Positions 50,373-59,315 of a stretch of 64,000 bases of DNA are shown here, one piece after another. The stretch comes from Nonomuraea jabiensis (GTDB lineage Bacteria > Actinomycetota > Actinomycetes > Streptosporangiales > Streptosporangiaceae), in contig NZ_JACHMB010000001.1 of NCBI RefSeq assembly GCF_014204795.1, forward strand, positions 13,048,501 through 13,112,500, read 5' to 3'. The notes beneath the pieces were generated by a model that saw nothing but the letters and a program-made list of their open reading frames with translations, searched no databases and was not told where the DNA came from. How positions within the stretch are numbered: position 1 is the first letter of the stretch; each line of letters begins with the position of its first letter. A program made the translations under genes and the position numbers.

Positions 50373-51119
50373 TCAGTCGTCGGCCGTGAGCCCTTCGGCG
50401 ATCTTGATCAGCTCGCGGTCGACGGCCTTGGCATCGGGGAACCTCTTCACGTACACGGGACTGAACATGATCTCGGCCCTCCGCTGCTCGCCCATGTTCA
50501 GGAAGAGCGTGGGGGTGCCCTTCATGCCGTCCTCGCCGACCCCTTCGACGACCGCGTACCCGGTGCGGTCGCCGACGGTCACCTCCTTGCCCTCCCCCTC
50601 GTCGCGGTGCGCCTGCACGCGGTCGTCGACCTCCTGGACGGCCTGGCCCTCGTACACGTAGATCTGGACGCAGTAGAAGCCGTTCTTGTCGCCGTCGTAG
50701 TTCCACGAGGTCGTGTACCTGTCGCCGAAGTCGTAAGACCACTGGGACCACCGCAGGCCGTCGGGCAGGTAACCCACCCTGACGTGCTTGAGCGCCTTCC
50801 CGTCGCCCAGGTCCCCGAGGCTCGGGGGCTCGGAGGGCGGGGCCGGGGTGTCGTCGATGGCGGGCGGCCCCAGCGTCTGGGAGGCGGATGGATCCGGCGT
50901 CTCGGTGACGACGGACGTCTGCACGGCGCCCGGGGCCGCCGTCAGGTAGAGGGGGACCGCCGCGGCCACGGCCAGCGACGTGGCCACCGTCGCGATCCGG
51001 CCACGGGTCTTCTTCCGCCGCGAGGACCGGACGACCCGGTCCACGAGGTCGGGCGCGGCGTGCAGCCGCGCGGTCTCCTCCGCCATGATCTGGCGGAGCT
51101 GGTCCTCAAGCATGGGCAT
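50373..51119 (-). CDS. Membrane-anchored partner (anti-sigma-like) of the SigE-family factor
   Basis: A 248-residue single-pass protein: cytosolic N-terminus (1-45), one membrane segment (about 43-62, ATVATSLAVAAAVPLYLTAA), a Pro/Ser-rich linker and an extracytoplasmic domain. There is no zinc-binding ZAS motif. It overlaps the end of the sigma gene by 14 bp, an arrangement typical of ECF sigma/anti-sigma pairs, so an anti-sigma role is inferred rather than shown. Confidence 0.75.
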   Translation of the reverse strand: MPMLEDQLRQIMAEETARLHAAPDLVDRVVRSSRRKKTRGRIATVATSLAVAAAVPLYLTAAPGAVQTSVVTETPDPSASQTLGPPAIDDTPAPPSEPPSLGDLGDGKALKHVRVGYLPDGLRWSQWSYDFGDRYTTSWNYDGDKNGFYCVQIYVYEGQAVQEVDDRVQAHRDEGEGKEVTVGDRTGYAVVEGVGEDGMKGTPTLFLNMGEQRRAEIMFSPVYVKRFPDAKAVDRELIKIAEGLTADD

Positions 51120-51618
51120 TCCCGATCACTCCTTCCACGGTTTCCTCGCCGAGTGCCGTACGCAGCTTGGCCATCGCCTTCGACGCCTGACTCTTCACCG
51201 TGCCGAGCGTGCAGCCGAGCACCTCCGCGGTCTGCGTCTCGCTGAGGTCCTCCCAGTACCGCAGGACGACCACCGCGCGCTGCCGGGGAGGCAGGCCGCG
51301 CAGCGCGTCCATGAGCACGTGACGCAGGTCGACGTCGGTCGAGCGGGCCGCTCTCTCCGGCGGCACGCGCATCGGGATGATGTTCAGGATCGCCCGGCGC
51401 CGGGCCCTGCTGATGGCGGTGTTGATGATGACGCGGCGCACATAGGGCTCGACGGTGTCGCGCCGCACCCGGTCCCAGTTCCGGTACGTACGCTCCAGCG
51501 CCGTCTGCAGCAGGTCCTCCGCCTCCGCCTCGTCTCCGCAGGCGAGGTAGGCGACCCGCAACAGGGTCGTGGCCCTTGCGGCCACGAACGCGCCGAAGTC
51601 ATGGTCCGCGCCGCTCAC
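51106..51618 (-). CDS. SigE-family ECF RNA polymerase sigma factor
   Basis: A 170-residue ECF sigma factor with sigma2 (FVAARATTLLRVAYLACGDEAEAEDLLQTALERTYRNW) and sigma4 (LPPRQRAVVVLRYWEDLSETQTAEVLGCTLGTVKSQASKAMAKLR), characteristic of the actinobacterial SigE-like group. GTG 51618 is chosen; upstream codons to 51690 run through its promoter. It probably drives its own gene and the divergent CU044_5270 gene from the paired promoters at 51646-51715. Confidence 0.9.
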   Translation of the reverse strand: MSGADHDFGAFVAARATTLLRVAYLACGDEAEAEDLLQTALERTYRNWDRVRRDTVEPYVRRVIINTAISRARRRAILNIIPMRVPPERAARSTDVDLRHVLMDALRGLPPRQRAVVVLRYWEDLSETQTAEVLGCTLGTVKSQASKAMAKLRTALGEETVEGVIGNAHA

Positions 51619-51645
51619 GGCTGTCTGTCCAATTTCACGCCCCCT

Positions 51646-51675
51646 AATACGCCTCGGCCGCTCCGAACAGTTGCC
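51646..51675 (-). promoter_or_regulatory. ECF-type promoter of the sigma operon
   Basis: On the minus strand GGCAAC (51675-51670), an 18-bp spacer and CGTATT (51651-51646) followed by AGGGGG. The same -35, spacer length and -10 occur on the plus strand at 51686-51715. Confidence 0.65.
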
Positions 51676-51685
51676 AGGCATCGCA

Positions 51686-51715
51686 GGCAACCTTTTCGCG
51701 GCGCCCAGGCGTATT
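51686..51715 (+). promoter_or_regulatory. ECF-type promoter of the CU044_5270 gene
   Basis: GGCAAC (51686-51691), an 18-bp spacer and CGTATT (51710-51715) followed by GGGGG, a mirror image of the sigma-operon promoter. Both are probably read by the adjacent SigE-family factor. Confidence 0.65.
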
Positions 51716-52686: not shown

Positions 52687-52722
52687 AGGCGCGAAGGCCC
52701 GTCCGGACGGGCCTTCGCGCCT
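52687..52722. terminator. Perfect 36-bp terminator palindrome
   Basis: AGGCGCGAAGGCCCGTCC is followed immediately by its exact inverse, with no unpaired loop in the duplex. It serves both the CU044_5270 gene (plus) and cysteine-rich peptide 1 (minus). Confidence 0.85.
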
Positions 52723-52728
52723 ACGCGG

Positions 52729-52911
52729 TCATCGGCAGCGCGGGTCCAGGCACTGGGCGCACGCGATCACGCCGCTCCCGCTCCGGAACTTGCAGATCTG
52801 GAAGTCGCAGCACCCGATCCACTCCGGGGGCGGAGCGTACGCCGCCGCCTCGGCCCTCGGCACCACCAGGCCGAGCATGAAGTCGCTGACCTTACCGAAC
52901 AATCTGTTCAT
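52729..52911 (-). CDS. Cysteine-rich peptide 1 (precursor candidate)
   Basis: A 60-residue peptide. Residues 1-26 form a leader (MNRLFGKVSD, then a short hydrophobic FMLGLVVP and an Ala-rich PRAEAAAYA). Residues 27-60 are a core with six cysteines (34, 35, 40, 51, 54, 59) around WIGCCDF. The leader and exact Cys spacing CC-x4-C-x10-C-x2-C-x4-C recur in peptide 2 (57783-57959). GGAGG lies 5 nt before the ATG. It has its own conserved upstream box (52949-52995) and terminator, and is divergent from the thioredoxin/ABC/S26 operon. An Ala-x-Ala cut by the linked S26 peptidase is plausible. I do not recognise the family. Confidence 0.8.
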   Translation of the reverse strand: MNRLFGKVSDFMLGLVVPRAEAAAYAPPPEWIGCCDFQICKFRSGSGVIACAQCLDPRCR

Positions 52912-52948
52912 TCCCGCCTCCAAGCGGAACGCCGACGGTTCTCAGGGC

Positions 52949-52995
52949 CGACCGTAGAGAGGCTGCCGATCGGGCCGATACACGAGTACGTATGC
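52949..52995 (-). promoter_or_regulatory. Conserved 47-bp box upstream of peptide 1
   Basis: Read on the minus strand, it is identical to 57699-57745 at 39 of 47 positions with no gaps. It includes GCATAC, TCGTGTATC, ATCGGC and CTCTACGGTCG, the last with a TACGGT -10-like core, and ends exactly 37 nt before the start codon in both cases. It is a likely promoter/operator for the linked SARP. Confidence 0.75.
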
Positions 52996-53057
52996 GGGTC
53001 CTATCGCCGCGGTTCCTAGGGTTTGCGATGCCCGGCCACGGCGAAAGGAGAGGACCC

Positions 53058-53609
53058 ATGTCAGGTCTCGTCGCGATCGTTGCGCTCGTCAGCGTGCTGA
53101 CGGTGCTCAATCTGCTGCTCACGTTCGGTGTGATCCGGCGGCTGCGCGAGCACACGGAGCTGCTCGCCGGCCGGGCGACCCCGATCGTGGGCGAGCCGCC
53201 CTCCCTGCCGGTGGGCCGCCAGGTCGGGGACTTCGCCGCCACCACGACCGACGGGGAGCCGGTCGCGCGGGCGCTGCTCGCGGGCGACACCCTCGTCGCC
53301 TTCCTGACCCCCGGCTGCGAACCATGCGAGGAAAGCCTGCCCCACCTCGTCGAAGCCGCGAAGAAGTGGCCGGGTGGCCGGCGGAACACCCTGGTGGTCG
53401 TCATCGGCAGACGCGACCGCGCCGCCGATCACGTCGAGCGGCTGGCTCCCGTGGCGAGGGTCGTGGTCGAGGCGCCCGACGGGCCGATCGCCACGGGGTT
53501 CGGCGTGACGGCGTACCCGCTCTTCGGGGTGGTGGACTCCTCGGGGCAGGTGCTCCGATCCGAGACGGCCCCCGCCGCGCTGCTGCCGCACGGCGTCGCG
53601 CCGGCGTGA
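53058..53609 (+). CDS. Membrane-anchored thioredoxin-like protein
   Basis: A 183-residue protein: an N-terminal membrane anchor (residues 3-26), a charged linker, then a TlpA/MauD-like thioredoxin fold (about 50-175) with active site PGCEPCEE (Cys87, Cys90) and the cis-Pro region TAYPLFGVVD. It faces the outside and could form or reduce disulfides. Next to two cysteine-rich peptides and an exporter, a role in their oxidative folding is the natural inference. ATG 53058 follows GAAAGGAGAGG. Its stop overlaps the ABC gene start (GTGA). Confidence 0.87.
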   Translation: MSGLVAIVALVSVLTVLNLLLTFGVIRRLREHTELLAGRATPIVGEPPSLPVGRQVGDFAATTTDGEPVARALLAGDTLVAFLTPGCEPCEESLPHLVEAAKKWPGGRRNTLVVVIGRRDRAADHVERLAPVARVVVEAPDGPIATGFGVTAYPLFGVVDSSGQVLRSETAPAALLPHGVAPA

Positions 53610-55477
53610 CGGTGCGGCTGCCTCGCCTGCGGGGCGTCGGCGTGACGGTGCGGCTGCCTCACCTGGGCGGCGTCGGCCATGCCCTCGGCCTGGCCTGGCG
53701 GGCCGGGCCGGCGACACTGCTGCTGTACGTGGGCCTCACCGTCGTGAGCGGCGCCGTACCCGTCGCCGTCTCGTGGCTGACCAAGCTGATCCTGGATCAG
53801 ATCGCCACCGGCCACGCCGACGCCACGACGCTCACCGGCCTCGGCGCCGGACTGGCGGCCGCGGGAGCCGTCGTCACCGTCCTGCCGCGCGCCGCCCAAT
53901 ATGTCACCGAGGAGCTGGGCCGCGCCGTGGCGCTGCTGGCCGATGATCGCCTGTACGCCGCGGTCAACTCCTTCGCCGGGCTCGGGCGCTTCGAGAATCC
54001 TGCCTTTCTGGATCGGCTGCGCATGGCCAAGCAATCGGGCGGGGTCGCCCCGGGGCGGGTGGTCGCCGCGGTGCTCTCCCTCGTCCAGGCGGCGATCAGC
54101 GTGGCCGGCTTCCTGGGCTCGCTCATCGTCATCAGCCCCATGATGGTCGTGGCGGTGCTCATGGGAGCGATACCGATGACGGTCGCCGAATTCCTGCTGT
54201 CCCGGCGGCGGGCCCGGATGTTCTGGCGCATCGGGCCGCTGCAGAGGCGGGAGATCTTCTTCGGGGAGCTGCTGGGAAGCGTGGACGCCGCCAAGGAGGT
54301 GCGGCTGTTCGGCATCGGCGCTCACCTGCGGGGCCTGATGCGCGCCGACAGGCTCGCCGCGAACGCCGCTGAGCGGCGCACCGGCAGACGCGAAATGCTC
54401 ACGCAGGGCGGCCTCGGCCTGGTCAGCGCGACGGTGTCCGGCGCGGGCCTCGTCTGGGCCGTCCGGGCGGCCGGCTCCGGACAGCTTTCCGTGGGCGACG
54501 TCACGATGTTCGCGGCCGCGGTGGCGGGCGTGGGGCTCGCGCTCGGACGCCTGGTCACCGAGGTCGCGGGGGCTCATTTCCAGCTCCTGATGTTCGACCA
54601 TTATCGGGCCGTCGTGAACGCCGGTCCCGACCTCCCCGGGCCGTCGCGCCCGCGCCCGCTGGCGGGGCTGCGGCAGGGGATCGAGCTGCGCGACGTCTGG
54701 TTCCGGTACTCGCCGGAGCATCCGTGGGCGCTGCGGGGCGTCAACCTGTTCATCCCGTACGGATCCGTGCTCGGGCTGGTCGGCGTGAACGGCGCGGGCA
54801 AGAGCACGATCGTCAAACTGCTGTGCCGGTTCTACGACCCCGACCGGGGCGTGATCCTCTGGGACGGCGTGGACCTCCGCGAGGTGCCGCCGGAGACGTT
54901 GCGGAGCAGGATCAGCGCGGTGTTCCAGGACTTCATGGCCTATGACCTGACGGCCGCGGAGAATGTCGGCCTGGGCGACGTCCGCTCGCTCCACGACCGG
55001 CCCCGCATCGAGGCCGCGGCACGCGAGGCGGGCGCCCATTCCCTCCTCGCCGGCCTGCCCGGCGGCTACGACACCTTGCTCTCACGGTTGTTCTTCAGCG
55101 AGGCCGACAAGACCGACGCGAGCACGGGAGTCTATCTGTCCGGCGGTCAATGGCAGCGCGTGGCGCTCGCCCGTGCGATGCTGCGCGACCACTGCGACCT
55201 GATGATTCTCGACGAACCCAGCTCGGGGCTGGACGCCGACGCCGAACACGAGATCCACCAGCGACTGCGGCGATATCGCGCGGGCCGTACGAGCGTGCTC
55301 GTGTCCCACCGGCTCGGCGCCATGACGGACGCGAGCGCCATAGCCGTGCTGGAGGACGGGCGGGTGACCGAGTACGGGACCCATGAGGAGCTCCTCACGC
55401 TGGGGGGCACCTACGCGCGGCTGTTCACCAGGCAGGCGCGGGGCTACCGTGCCGACGAGCAAGGCGTGCCGTCATGA
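53606..55477 (+). CDS. ABC exporter (fused membrane and ATPase domains)
   Basis: A 623-residue type IV ABC exporter half-transporter. Membrane domain about 30-330 with six segments; ATPase 355-600 with GVNGAGKST (Walker A, about 393), LSGGQWQRVALARAM (signature) and LMILDEPSSGLD (Walker B), and H-loop VSHRLG. No peptidase C39 domain. The N-terminus contains a 36-bp tandem duplication (VTVRLPRLRGVG then VTVRLPHLGGVG), so GTG 53642 is an alternative start. It is coupled to the thioredoxin gene upstream and the S26 gene downstream (ATGA), and probably exports the cysteine-rich peptides. Confidence 0.9.
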   Translation: MTVRLPRLRGVGVTVRLPHLGGVGHALGLAWRAGPATLLLYVGLTVVSGAVPVAVSWLTKLILDQIATGHADATTLTGLGAGLAAAGAVVTVLPRAAQYVTEELGRAVALLADDRLYAAVNSFAGLGRFENPAFLDRLRMAKQSGGVAPGRVVAAVLSLVQAAISVAGFLGSLIVISPMMVVAVLMGAIPMTVAEFLLSRRRARMFWRIGPLQRREIFFGELLGSVDAAKEVRLFGIGAHLRGLMRADRLAANAAERRTGRREMLTQGGLGLVSATVSGAGLVWAVRAAGSGQLSVGDVTMFAAAVAGVGLALGRLVTEVAGAHFQLLMFDHYRAVVNAGPDLPGPSRPRPLAGLRQGIELRDVWFRYSPEHPWALRGVNLFIPYGSVLGLVGVNGAGKSTIVKLLCRFYDPDRGVILWDGVDLREVPPETLRSRISAVFQDFMAYDLTAAENVGLGDVRSLHDRPRIEAAAREAGAHSLLAGLPGGYDTLLSRLFFSEADKTDASTGVYLSGGQWQRVALARAMLRDHCDLMILDEPSSGLDADAEHEIHQRLRRYRAGRTSVLVSHRLGAMTDASAIAVLEDGRVTEYGTHEELLTLGGTYARLFTRQARGYRADEQGVPS

Positions 55478-55896
55478 GCGGCTGGGCTCTCGCCGTTCTC
55501 GGGGGCGCCGTGGCGCTCTGCTTCGCGTACGTCAGGCGCCGGTTCGTCGCGGTGACCATCACCGGCACGAGCATGGCGCCCACCTACAGCGAAGGTGAAC
55601 GCGTGCTGGTGGTACGCGGCGGAGTCGACCGCCTGCGCCGGGGCGACATCGTCGTGGTGCGGTGGGCGCCGGCGGATTCGATCCCGCTGCTGCTGATCAA
55701 ACGGGTGGCGGGGGTCGCCGGTGATCCCGTCCCCGCCGATGTGGCGACCGCCGTCAACCGGCCCGCGGGCACGCCCATACCCGCCGGGAAGTTCATCGTG
55801 CGCGGCGACAACCCCGACTGGAGCCTGGACTCCCGGACGGTGGGCTTCTTCGACGGCGAGAGCCTGCTCGGGACGACGGTCAAACGCCGGGCATGA
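55474..55896 (+). CDS. S26 family signal peptidase
   Basis: A 140-residue type I signal peptidase-like protein with one N-terminal membrane segment (3-20), catalytic Ser33 in TGTSMAPTYSEGERVLV, catalytic Lys76 in LLIKRVAGVAGD and the box E segment RGDNPDWSLDSRTVGFF. It is much shorter than housekeeping LepB, as in dedicated peptidases that process particular cargo. Coupled to the ABC gene by ATGA; its 3' end overlaps the SARP gene by 17 bp. Likely cargo: the two cysteine-rich peptides, whose leaders end in Ala-rich stretches. Confidence 0.88.
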   Translation: MSGWALAVLGGAVALCFAYVRRRFVAVTITGTSMAPTYSEGERVLVVRGGVDRLRRGDIVVVRWAPADSIPLLLIKRVAGVAGDPVPADVATAVNRPAGTPIPAGKFIVRGDNPDWSLDSRTVGFFDGESLLGTTVKRRA

Positions 55897-57622
55897 GCCG
55901 CAGGGCGCCCCGGGACACCGTGGCGAGGTCCCGGGCCAGGAGCCGGGACAGCTCCGTCATCCGGTAGCGGTCCCGCGCGCGGAAGTCGAGCAGCTCCATC
56001 TCGACCAGCCGGTCCAGTGCCCGGCTGATTCTCCTGACGGGCGCGTGCAGCCTCCTGGCGGCCTCCGCCGCGCCGATCTCCGCGGCGGGAAGGGAGCCGA
56101 GCTGCCGGAACACCTCGATGGCGAGCCGATCCATCGGGTGCTCACTTGCCATGAGGTGCTCGACCTGCGCGTACATGCTGGCCCGCATCGACAGGTCACC
56201 GGCCTGCAGCTCGTCGAGCCGGTGCCTGTCGTCGGCCATCCGCTCCAGCAGCTCGCGGACGGACCAGCCGGGGTGCGCGACCAGCCGGGCGGCGGCGATG
56301 CGCAGGGCGAGCGGCAGCCGGCCGCACAGACGCACCACCTCGGCGGCGGCGCCGGGATCTTCCCGCAACCTGCCCGGATCGACATGGTGGGCCAGGAACG
56401 CCATCGCCTCCCTCTGTCCCAGCCTGTCCAGCCGGAGGTGCAGCGCGCCGTCCAGCGTCGTGAGCATGGGACAGCTCGTGACGAGGAACGTGCAGAGCCG
56501 GGCGGCCGCGAGGAACGGGCGGACGGATGCGACCTCGGGCGCGTTGTCCAGCACCACGAGCATGCGGCGTTCGGCCAAGAGCGACTGGTATCGCGCGAGG
56601 GCGGCATCGGGGTCGCTCACGGGCCGGCGGCGCGGTCGCAGGTCCACGTACAGCTGGCCGTCCGGATAGCGATCCGCGACCAGATGGGCGGCGTGCAGGG
56701 CCAACGAGGACTTGCCGGCTCCCGCCGGGCCGTGCACCACCACCACACCGCCGGCGGCGCCGAGCCGCTGGGTGAGGAAGGAGAGTTCCGGCTCGCGCCC
56801 GACGATGACCGGCTTCCGCGGCAGCCGGCACGGCGGGAAGGCCGAGGCGACCGCTCGGGGCGGGCGCAGGTCGCGGCGCAGGATCGCCTGGTGGAGGCGG
56901 CGCAGATCCTCGCCCGGCTCGATGCCGAGGGATCCGGTGATCGCGACGCGGGCCTGCTCGTACGCGTCGAGTGCCCCGGCGACGTCGTGGTCGGCGTACA
57001 GGGCGCGCATCAGGAGCGCCCACGCCCGCTCCCGCAGCGGCAGCTCCGTGACGAGCGAGCGGAGCGGCCAGATGGCGGGTGACGGGCGGCCGAGCAGCAA
57101 CAGTGCCTCGCAGCGGTCCTCCTGGACCGCGCGGCGCTGCTCGTCGATCGCGACCTCGCGGGCGGCGAGGACCGGCCCGTGGGGGACGTCCTCCAGCAGC
57201 CGCCCGCGCCACAGCGCGAGCGCCGTTTCGAAATGCCGCAACGCCTCCTCGACGCGACCTTTTTCGAGAGCGGCGCGGCCGGACGCCGCTCTGTCCTCGA
57301 ACGCCTTCAGGTCGAGTTCGGCCGCCTCGACCCGCAGTTGATAGCCCAGCGGGCGGACGATCAGGCGATCCCGCTCCGCGGCCGGAAACGCGGCTCGAAG
57401 CCGTGCCGCATAAGTGCGGAGATTGGCGGTGGCGGATTTGGGCGGGGCCGAGCCCCACAATTCCTCGGTGATCTCGTGAAGCGGGGCCAGCGTGTTGGCC
57501 CGCACCAGCAGAAGGGACGTGAGCGTGCGTTGTTTCGGGGCGCCCGGCCTGAGCAACCGGCCATTCGCCCGCATCGCCAGCCCGCCCAGCACAGTGAATT
57601 CCATCGAACCAGGAGTCATCAC
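55880..57622 (-). CDS. AfsR/SARP-type regulator with BTAD and NB-ARC domains
   Basis: A 580-residue regulator: OmpR-type winged helix (about 7-95, LGGLAMRANGRLLRPGAPKQRTLTSLLLVRAN, LRTYAARLR), bacterial transcriptional activator domain (about 100-245) and an NB-ARC ATPase (about 265-510) with VHGPAGAGKSS (Walker A) and MLVVLDN (Walker B). The C-terminal TPR region of full AfsR is absent. Such proteins activate secondary-metabolite operons. It is divergent from peptide 2 and convergent with the export operon, so it is the probable activator binding the 47-bp boxes. Start GTG 57622 or ATG 57619. Confidence 0.9.
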   Translation of the reverse strand: MMTPGSMEFTVLGGLAMRANGRLLRPGAPKQRTLTSLLLVRANTLAPLHEITEELWGSAPPKSATANLRTYAARLRAAFPAAERDRLIVRPLGYQLRVEAAELDLKAFEDRAASGRAALEKGRVEEALRHFETALALWRGRLLEDVPHGPVLAAREVAIDEQRRAVQEDRCEALLLLGRPSPAIWPLRSLVTELPLRERAWALLMRALYADHDVAGALDAYEQARVAITGSLGIEPGEDLRRLHQAILRRDLRPPRAVASAFPPCRLPRKPVIVGREPELSFLTQRLGAAGGVVVVHGPAGAGKSSLALHAAHLVADRYPDGQLYVDLRPRRRPVSDPDAALARYQSLLAERRMLVVLDNAPEVASVRPFLAAARLCTFLVTSCPMLTTLDGALHLRLDRLGQREAMAFLAHHVDPGRLREDPGAAAEVVRLCGRLPLALRIAAARLVAHPGWSVRELLERMADDRHRLDELQAGDLSMRASMYAQVEHLMASEHPMDRLAIEVFRQLGSLPAAEIGAAEAARRLHAPVRRISRALDRLVEMELLDFRARDRYRMTELSRLLARDLATVSRGALRLMPGV

Positions 57623-57698
57623 CCCAGATCCTCGGAAACGAAAAGTCCCGCAACAAGGTCAGCCACCGGACATTGAGCGGACATTTCTCGCGGGGCAC

Positions 57699-57745
57699 GC
57701 ATACACATTCGTGTATCAGCCCTATCGGCGGCGCCTCTACGGTCG
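57699..57745 (+). promoter_or_regulatory. Conserved 47-bp box upstream of peptide 2
   Basis: The partner of 52949-52995 (39 of 47 identical, same 37-nt distance to the start). Here the left part contains a perfect ATACAC-ATTC-GTGTAT inverted repeat (57701-57716), and the right part CTCTACGGTCG resembles a -10 region. Confidence 0.75.
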
Positions 57746-57782
57746 AATCCGAACACATCCGCGTCGTACCTGGAGGTACACG

Positions 57783-57959
57783 ATGAACAGATTGTTCGGC
57801 AAGGTCAGTGACGCGATGCTGGGGCTGCTGGTCCCCAGGAAGGAGGCACACGCCCTGCCCGCGACCTGGATCGGGTGCTGCGACTTCTGCGTATGCCTCT
57901 ACCGGTACGACGACGGCCACACGAGTTGCCTTCGCTGCTCCTGCCAGATGTGCGGCTAG
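57783..57959 (+). CDS. Cysteine-rich peptide 2 (precursor candidate)
   Basis: A 58-residue paralogue of peptide 1. The leader MNRLFGKVSD-AMLGLLVPRKEA is nearly identical even at the nucleotide level; the core starts near TWIGCCDF. Eight cysteines (32, 33, 36, 38, 49, 52, 54, 57): six keep exactly the spacing of peptide 1, and Cys36 and Cys54 are extra. An AxA-type site lies in EAHALPA. Ribosome site TGGAGG 6 nt upstream. Bounded by the 57699-57745 box and a 14-bp-stem terminator, so it is monocistronic and could be expressed abundantly. Confidence 0.8.
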   Translation: MNRLFGKVSDAMLGLLVPRKEAHALPATWIGCCDFCVCLYRYDDGHTSCLRCSCQMCG

Positions 57960-58028: not shown

Positions 58029-58090
58029 GGATGCGCGCCCGCATGCGGCGGACCATCCCCACGCAGGCCCTTGTCGGCTTTACTTGCTCT

Positions 58091-59167
58091 ATGCAGCGCA
58101 TGCGCACGTTCGCGGGCTGGTTGATCGAAGGTCTTGAGCGGGCCTTCCACGACGGCCGGAACCCGTTGATCAAGGGGGTGTCCCGCGCGGAGTTCGAGGC
58201 GCTGCCCGTGAAGGAGCGCATCGAGATCAGGGCGCTCGCCACGCAGCACAGAATGCAGTTGCTCTCCACGTCGGGGGTGCTGTTCGGGCTGCTGTTCACG
58301 GCGGCGGGGCTGTTCTACACCGCGCGCTCGCTCGACGCCACGCAGGAAGGCCAGATCACCGAGCGTTACACGCGGGCCATCGCGCAGATCGGCTCGGACA
58401 CGCTGGAGGGGAGGGTCGGCGCGATCTACGCCCTGGAAAGGATCTCTCGGGACTCGCCGCGCGATCAGCAGACCGTCGTGGACGTGCTCGCCACGTACCT
58501 ACGCGAGCGCTCCCCGAAGAAGGGCAAGGACCCGCACAGCCCGGCGGACATCCAGGCGGCGCTGGCGGTGATCGCCAGGAACAAGCCCGCCGGCACGCCG
58601 CCGCCGACAGGGCCGCCGTGGTCCGCGCAGCACTGGGTGAACCTGTCGGGCATCCGCGCCACGGGCCTGACGCTGGTCAACGCCGACCTGTCCGGCGCGG
58701 ACCTCACCGGCACCGACTTCGGCAACCGCGAAACCATAAAGAAGGCGGACGGCTCCATCTGGTGGGTTCGCAGCTTCCTCGACCACGCGAACCTCTCCTA
58801 CGCGGACGTGGGCTTCTCGACCTGGATCCGGGTGTCGCTGTCCGGGGCGAACCTCACCGGGGCGAACTTCGGCGGGTCCGACCTGACGAACATCGACTTC
58901 AGCGGGGCGCGGCTGCTCGGCGCGAATCTCTCCGGCGCGAAGGTCCGGTACGCGAACCTGGACGGTGCCGACCTCACGGGCGTCGACCTGGGCGGCGTCG
59001 ACTTCACGGGCACCCGCTTCCGTGGGGCCGACCTCACCGGTGCGAAATGGCCCAGCGACCAAGGGAGGATCGACCTGCGCGACGCCGACCTCAGCGGCGC
59101 CAAGGGCGTCCCGTCGGAGGACGTCCTGAAGAAGATCGCGCTGATGAACGACAAGACCCGGCTCTGA
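58091..59167 (+). CDS. Pentapeptide-repeat membrane protein
   Basis: A 358-residue protein: a conserved N-terminal region (RIEIRALATQHRMQLL), one or two membrane segments (about 65-82, LFGLLFTAAGLFYTAR), an ITERYTRAIAQIGSDTLEGRVGAIYALERISRDS linker typical of this family, and a C-terminal right-handed beta-helix of A(D/N)LxG repeats (about 205-345). The role is unknown; possibly a scaffold. In-frame ATGs at 58031 and 58043 exist, but they abut the peptide 2 terminator, so ATG 58091 (or 58100) is preferred. Confidence 0.82.
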   Translation: MQRMRTFAGWLIEGLERAFHDGRNPLIKGVSRAEFEALPVKERIEIRALATQHRMQLLSTSGVLFGLLFTAAGLFYTARSLDATQEGQITERYTRAIAQIGSDTLEGRVGAIYALERISRDSPRDQQTVVDVLATYLRERSPKKGKDPHSPADIQAALAVIARNKPAGTPPPTGPPWSAQHWVNLSGIRATGLTLVNADLSGADLTGTDFGNRETIKKADGSIWWVRSFLDHANLSYADVGFSTWIRVSLSGANLTGANFGGSDLTNIDFSGARLLGANLSGAKVRYANLDGADLTGVDLGGVDFTGTRFRGADLTGAKWPSDQGRIDLRDADLSGAKGVPSEDVLKKIALMNDKTRL

Positions 59168-59232: not shown

Positions 59233-59242
59233 TCTGATCCGG

Positions 59243-59315
59243 TGGAGCTATGGGGATTCGAACCCCAGACCTCCTCCATGCCATGGAGGCGCGCTACCAA
59301 CTGCGCCATAGCCCC
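59243..59315 (-). tRNA. tRNA-Ala(GGC), second copy
   Basis: All 73 nt are identical to the tRNA at 10447-10519, on the same strand, with a similar -10 box (TACACT at 59333-59328). Anticodon GGC; CCA not encoded. Confidence 0.95.

Follow-up and report, generated by a model that had tools for sequence, protein, structure and literature searches.

Positions 52729–57959 of a 64,000-nucleotide stretch (the window) of the Nonomuraea jabiensis genome (13.17 Mb, one contig) hold six genes: two small cysteine-rich peptide precursors (pep1 and pep2), a TlpA-like protein, an ABC exporter, a small S26 signal peptidase and a SARP (Table 1). The precursors form the edges of the block, are both transcribed outward, and have leader and promoter in common. 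A preliminary description made from the sequence alone had proposed two paralogous peptides of 60 and 58 residues flanking a translationally coupled trio and an AfsR-type regulator; open reading frames (ORFs), start sites and Pfam matches confirm this layout, and the coupling is visible in overlapping stop and start codons (GTGA between TlpA and ABC, ATGA between ABC and S26). The grouping is not due to chance, because the set is found again in many other genomes.

Table 1. Features of the peptide locus (positions in the window)
Feature	Coordinates	Strand	Remarks
pep1 precursor	52729..52911	-	60 amino acids (aa), 6 Cys; ORF with GGAG ahead of ATG; leader-family member
pep1 predicted leader	52911-52840	-	24 aa; core starts 52839
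pep2 precursor	57783..57959	+	58 aa, 8 Cys; ORF with GGAG ahead of ATG; relatives found
pep2 predicted leader	57783-57854	+	24 aa; core starts 57855
Membrane-anchored TlpA/ResA-like thiol-disulfide protein	53058..53609	+	183 aa, CEPC motif; ATG after AAGGAG
ABC exporter	53606..55477	+	GTG start; membrane and ATPase parts in single chain
Small S26 signal peptidase	55474..55896	+	140 aa; ATG start
SARP/AfsR-like regulator	55880..57622	-	580 aa; BTAD and NTPase region; BTAD E 1.6e-38
pep1 promoter element	52949..52984	-	gapless in promoter alignment; genome-wide site scan
pep2 promoter element	57710..57745	+	gapless in promoter alignment; genome-wide site scan
Terminator-like inverted repeat	52688..52721	.	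between pep1 and convergent gene upstream; read by eye

The two precursors are 59–60% identical and are also similar as DNA, promoters included (73% across roughly 190 bp); neither has a match in Pfam or NCBIfam. Both fit the previously noted pattern CC-x4-C-x10-C-x2-C-x4-C, with pep2 carrying one additional cysteine within each x4. Each starts with a conserved, cysteine-free predicted leader of 22–24 residues that ends in A-x-A, and both match the hidden Markov model (HMM) of the leader (E 4.8e-16 and 1.9e-15), of which they are seeds. In the numbering of pep1, residues D10, P18, A22 and A24 do not vary across 22 diverse precursors, and M1 and L13 hardly vary. In one Embleya plasmid locus (sp. 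NBC_00888), two precursors adjoin the trio and have leaders that lack the usual proline and the A-x-A end, and a different cut site is therefore expected there.

Leader and core differ in composition and conservation. All 84 leaders with an A-x-A cut are free of cysteine, whereas 81 of 82 distinct cores outside the window contain an even number (4, 6, 8 or 10), with a single core of 5, as do 45 of 46 at 60% non-redundancy. The window cores are even too (6 in pep1, 8 in pep2) and were not among the 82. No cysteine filter was applied in this count, from which 2 of the 86 leader matches were dropped for lack of A-x-A at positions 17–30 (one a 6-Cys precursor, the other not precursor-like). Among small ORFs with at least four cysteines in control DNA, by comparison, 56 of 89 are even. 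The even counts therefore support disulfide pairing. In nine chosen loci, a subset of those with multiple precursors, the leader is more conserved than the non-cysteine core in all 40 same-locus pairs (mean identity 0.59–1.00 for leaders vs 0.17–0.64 for non-cysteine core positions; locus G255 contributed three of its four precursors).

A pair of cysteines that comes and goes together gives a more specific prediction. Besides the window peptides, the GCCD subfamily comprises peptides from two Planobispora species and N. cavernae as well as a remnant in Nonomuraea sp. NEAU-A123. Positions 36 and 54 (pep2 numbering) are both cysteine in pep2 and the four Planobispora peptides, and both non-cysteine in pep1, the N. 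cavernae peptide and that remnant. Because the two are gained or lost as a pair, we predict a Cys36–Cys54 bond in pep2.

Each of the trio's proteins belongs to a recognizable family. The Pfam scan of the block matched ABC_tran, Peptidase_S26 and BTAD, with AhpC-TSA (E 2e-5) and Redoxin just below cut-off for the TlpA-like protein. An AlphaFold 2 model of the latter (predicted local distance difference test score of 85, from a 4-row alignment) has thiol:disulfide interchange proteins, ResA and SdbA as its top PDB matches, which indicates a ResA/DsbE-type fold, and 77 of 80 TlpA-like ORFs from relatives contain CxxC. The exporter matches ABC_tran at E 4.3e-27 and MsbA/HlyB-type models below cut-off; no C39 peptidase domain is among its Pfam matches at E<=1. 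The peptidase scores 73.5 bits against TIGR02227 (47-bit cut-off), and its catalytic serine and lysine are conserved in every one of the 86 family rows (out of 88) that have a residue at these columns. No class-defining lanthipeptide, YcaO or radical-SAM enzyme lies within the block, where only the TlpA-like protein, exporter, S26 peptidase and SARP accompany the peptides, as the preliminary description had stated for these enzymes and for C39.

Expression of both peptides may be controlled from within the block. A 36-bp element aligns without gaps in all seven intact GCCD-type promoters and, at up to three mismatches, has two sites in the whole genome, ahead of pep1 and pep2; the reversed control of the element has zero sites in the genome at the same limit. 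We infer that the SARP acts on these two promoters.

The recurrence of the gene set was measured in stretches around precursor matches in other genomes. Of the higher-ranked stretches, 38 of 44 contain the full TlpA-like/ABC/S26 trio, as do 15 of 20 lower-ranked ones, compared with none of 20 arbitrary stretches from genomes of the same family (Fisher p 8e-12, with related loci treated as independent). The 44 comprise 40 chosen among the higher-ranked matches listed, two found with pep1 (L021 and L022) and two, L024 and L025, located initially through DNA similarity to the ABC/TlpA region and thus trio-favoured; the trio is in 36 of 42 without the latter. Stretches from a class-level search hold the trio in 14 of 15 cases and a leader-profile precursor in 13 of 15. 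In the reverse direction, a search from the TlpA-like protein returned 29 plasmid records, and each of the seven loci opened contains precursor and trio, six of them with MauE, although their leader matches are weak (up to E 0.46). A leader match had E <0.1 (0.5 for plasmid loci), at least three cysteines and fewer than 110 aa to the stop. Partner-family HMMs were trained on the 44 stretches and the window, so that the 20 lower-ranked and 15 class-search stretches, the controls and the named plasmid loci lay outside the training set; the lower-ranked and class-search stretches, the control positions and the seven plasmid records were all picked by hand, not at random. ABC matches below 600 bits were ignored, as were SARP matches below 300 bits (the 44 and 20 stretches) or 200 bits (the 15 stretches and plasmid loci). 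Homologous peptides scattered without the trio were thus not seen.

One limit to the preliminary interpretation is the SARP, which lies near 32 of 44 higher-ranked, 6 of 20 lower-ranked and 6 of 15 class-search precursors, and is common in family loci but not obligatory. MauE, on which that description was silent, is present in most relatives, near 26 of 44, 15 of 20 and 14 of 15 precursors in the same three sets, and CxC is found in 59 of 59 MauE sequences. It follows a precursor in N. cavernae and both Planobispora species, whereas the corresponding place in the window holds only the inverted repeat and then the next gene; for this reason, the window locus has probably lost MauE.

Taken together, these observations make it probable, in our judgement, that the locus encodes a dedicated pathway for the secretion, oxidation and trimming of disulfide-rich peptides with antagonistic products. 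The SARP would activate both peptide promoters, and each peptide would be made with a leader ending in the A-x-A site. The ABC exporter would recognize this leader and move the precursor outward, the membrane-anchored TlpA/MauD-like protein would form or correct the disulfides, and the S26 peptidase would cleave after A-x-A, in a presumed order that yields two secreted, fully disulfide-bonded peptides of about 34–36 residues. MauE would normally re-oxidize the TlpA/MauD-like protein, and the window locus may borrow it from another locus of the host. The mature peptides are probably bacteriocin- or defensin-like. The earlier proposal of secreted disulfide-rich peptides thus gains support from the trio association and the even cysteine counts, with secretion, oxidation and activity as its predicted elements. 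Antagonism is the likeliest purpose, because the cores are variable, one locus has an array of seven precursors, the genes are carried on plasmids and their presence is patchy.

Several points weigh against this reading. The peptide products are predicted from genes, and the parity and association counts use related sequences and are hence not independent. The full trio is lacking in 11 of 64 stretches, two of which (L022 and L064) are on contigs <10 kb, and no SARP was found near 12 of 44, 14 of 20 and 9 of 15 precursors. Core net charge ranges from −2 to +6 and is not uniformly cationic. The six genes show no evident immunity gene, no search aimed at such genes having been made. MauE is absent from the window locus, and the seven PF07291 matches in the host genome (five above cut-off, one at 3,702,123 beside paralogous loci) are all outside the window.

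The main rival to antagonism is a self-signal: the same machinery would export a density or developmental cue that feeds back on the SARP and is not antimicrobial. The regulator adjoins the genome's only two promoter sites, two paralogues are under the same promoter and the block has no evident immunity gene, all of which speak for a signal. However, the strong divergence of cores within loci and the array of seven are more weapon-like, and many precursors have no SARP nearby, so that we regard signalling as unlikely.

The charges around the membrane helices raise a different alternative, in which the TlpA-like and MauE-like proteins face inward, the exporter moves a pre-folded, leader-bearing peptide and the S26 peptidase trims it outside. 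In the 75 of 80 TlpA-like proteins whose helix is clear, the 12 residues after it carry a mean net charge of +2.2, and the four MauE sequences inspected have a positive, RR-containing stretch immediately ahead of CxC. By the positive-inside rule, both redox motifs would then lie in the cytosol. The pattern does not fit simple oxidation outside, and we infer the membrane sidedness of the favoured pathway. Yet the solved folds nearest to the TlpA-like model include many extracytoplasmic domains (for example from ResA and CcmG), and the window S26 also has RRR after its membrane helix (by eye) but should act outside if it resembles signal peptidase I. The cytosol, moreover, is normally reducing, and we consider oxidation there improbable. 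It is still harder to credit a role for the peptides as small metal-binding or electron-transfer proteins, not natural products, whose maturation by a MauD/MauE-like pathway would resemble that of methylamine dehydrogenase: MauE, weak MauD relatives and cysteine-rich cores are present, but the six genes include no partner enzyme, the scanned precursors match nothing among PDB sequences or PHROGs and have only stray hits in Pfam and NCBIfam, and variable cores, tandem copies and even cysteine numbers with shifting spacing better suit disulfides.

The favoured pathway of export, oxidation and trimming resembles several known systems in part. Pediocin-type class II bacteriocins combine a small disulfide peptide with a dedicated ABC exporter and a thioredoxin-like accessory protein, much as in the window, but they also have an immunity gene, and their double-glycine leader is cut by the exporter's C39 domain. 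The window peptides have no double-glycine leader (their sequences read A-E-A-A-A and E-A-H-A), and an A-x-A leader and separate S26 peptidase take its place. Glycocin and sublancin operons likewise pair a disulfide peptide with its own thiol-disulfide oxidoreductase and ABC exporter, but differ in leader and peptidase, and the six window genes include no glycosyltransferase. Maturation of methylamine dehydrogenase (MauA, MauD and MauE) shares MauE and MauD-like proteins with the relatives described here, but serves a dehydrogenase, for which the window block has no gene. The MauD model is not among the NCBIfam matches of the window TlpA-like protein at E<=1; for six relatives, three score 16.9 to 23.4 bits (cut-off 188.6) and three are unlisted.

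Closest by description are candidates from a 2020 screen of Streptomyces genomes (decRiPPter), in which three candidate families of ribosomally synthesized and post-translationally modified peptides (RiPPs) include mauE and one also mauD (PMC7794033). Their precursors are cysteine-rich, with at least eight cysteines, the strict filter of the screen demands a transporter, a peptidase and a regulator, and MauE is speculated to form disulfides in the methylamine dehydrogenase beta-subunit (PMC7794033). The family described here has MauE, MauD-like proteins, cysteine-rich precursors, a transporter, a peptidase and a regulator in common with these candidates, but the minimum of eight cysteines differs (pep1 has six) and the window has no mauE. 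The passages of that paper considered here tell of no product, and the terms S26, signal peptidase and SARP are absent from its main text. Compared by description, the two may be the same system. The earlier characterization of the locus as an undescribed system is thus only partly right, because mauE/mauD clusters with cysteine-rich precursors were already candidates (PMC7794033); relative to those passages, the shared leader, the S26 link, the cysteine parity and the breadth are new, and the cluster idea itself is not.

The family extends well beyond this locus. The host genome has five precursors in total, three of them elsewhere with three further TlpA/ABC/S26 sets (two adjacent near 3.69 Mb and one near 5.87 Mb). 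In the host family, 124 of 298 genomes have a match to a precursor profile built from six sequences (E <= 0.01). With a 22-sequence profile (E <= 0.001), matches were found in 36 of 297 genomes of a second family, 23 of 394 of a class sample (one taken as false) and 1 of 396 of a phylum sample, this being the host genome itself. The second family is probably Streptomycetaceae, because the TlpA-like relatives in the plasmid collection are mainly from Streptomyces (26 of 29 records, with 2 from Embleya and 1 from Nonomuraea). Loci of the GCCD type are rare. Within the genus, 54 genomes yielded that of the host, that of N. cavernae (with one peptide) and the NEAU-A123 remnant, whose peptide lacks its first codons and whose TlpA-like protein lacks more than half its length; no ABC or S26 gene is near the remnant, a state consistent with gain and loss.

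We see an even chance that the family represents a separate class of actinomycete natural products, comprising defensin-like multi-disulfide peptides with highly variable cores and a dedicated leader/ABC/S26/MauD–MauE-like pathway, in Streptosporangiaceae and Streptomycetaceae, including Streptomyces clavuligerus. Such products seem invisible to family-based annotation, because the scanned precursors have no usable model in Pfam or NCBIfam and, in three annotated plasmid loci (Streptomyces atratus, Streptomyces sp. NBC_00376 and S. clavuligerus), the small genes appear only as hypothetical protein. As the set ties leader, exporter, peptidase and oxidation pair together, many cores become predictable and testable, and MauD/MauE-like proteins gain a likely role beyond methylamine metabolism. 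The gene set is widespread in actinomycetes, and the peptides may be new antibiotics or signals.

Individual loci illustrate the range of arrangements. One (L059; G114:C28:341000-360000) holds seven divergent precursors with TlpA-like, ABC, S26, SARP and MauE genes, a natural library of cores beside a single exporter. Those of Planobispora longispora and P. rosea (L138 and L139; the N. cavernae locus is L137) have twin GCCD-type precursors with MauE between them and trio and SARP adjoining. In S. clavuligerus, a well-studied species, plasmid pF1D18A encodes two precursors, MauE, TlpA-like, ABC and S26 proteins, and its precursors and TlpA-like gene are among those annotated as hypothetical.

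Around the window locus, a sigma-70-family factor similar to extracytoplasmic function sigma factors (51106-51690, minus strand) overlaps its downstream gene (region 50373-51690) and is not regarded as part of the locus. Adjoining pep2, at 58031-59167, is a protein with pentapeptide repeats and, by eye, a hydrophobic stretch at its N terminus; it has no relative in L020–L025. Shortly past the locus, a tRNA-Ala (ggc) gene at 59241-59315 is a possible integration site.

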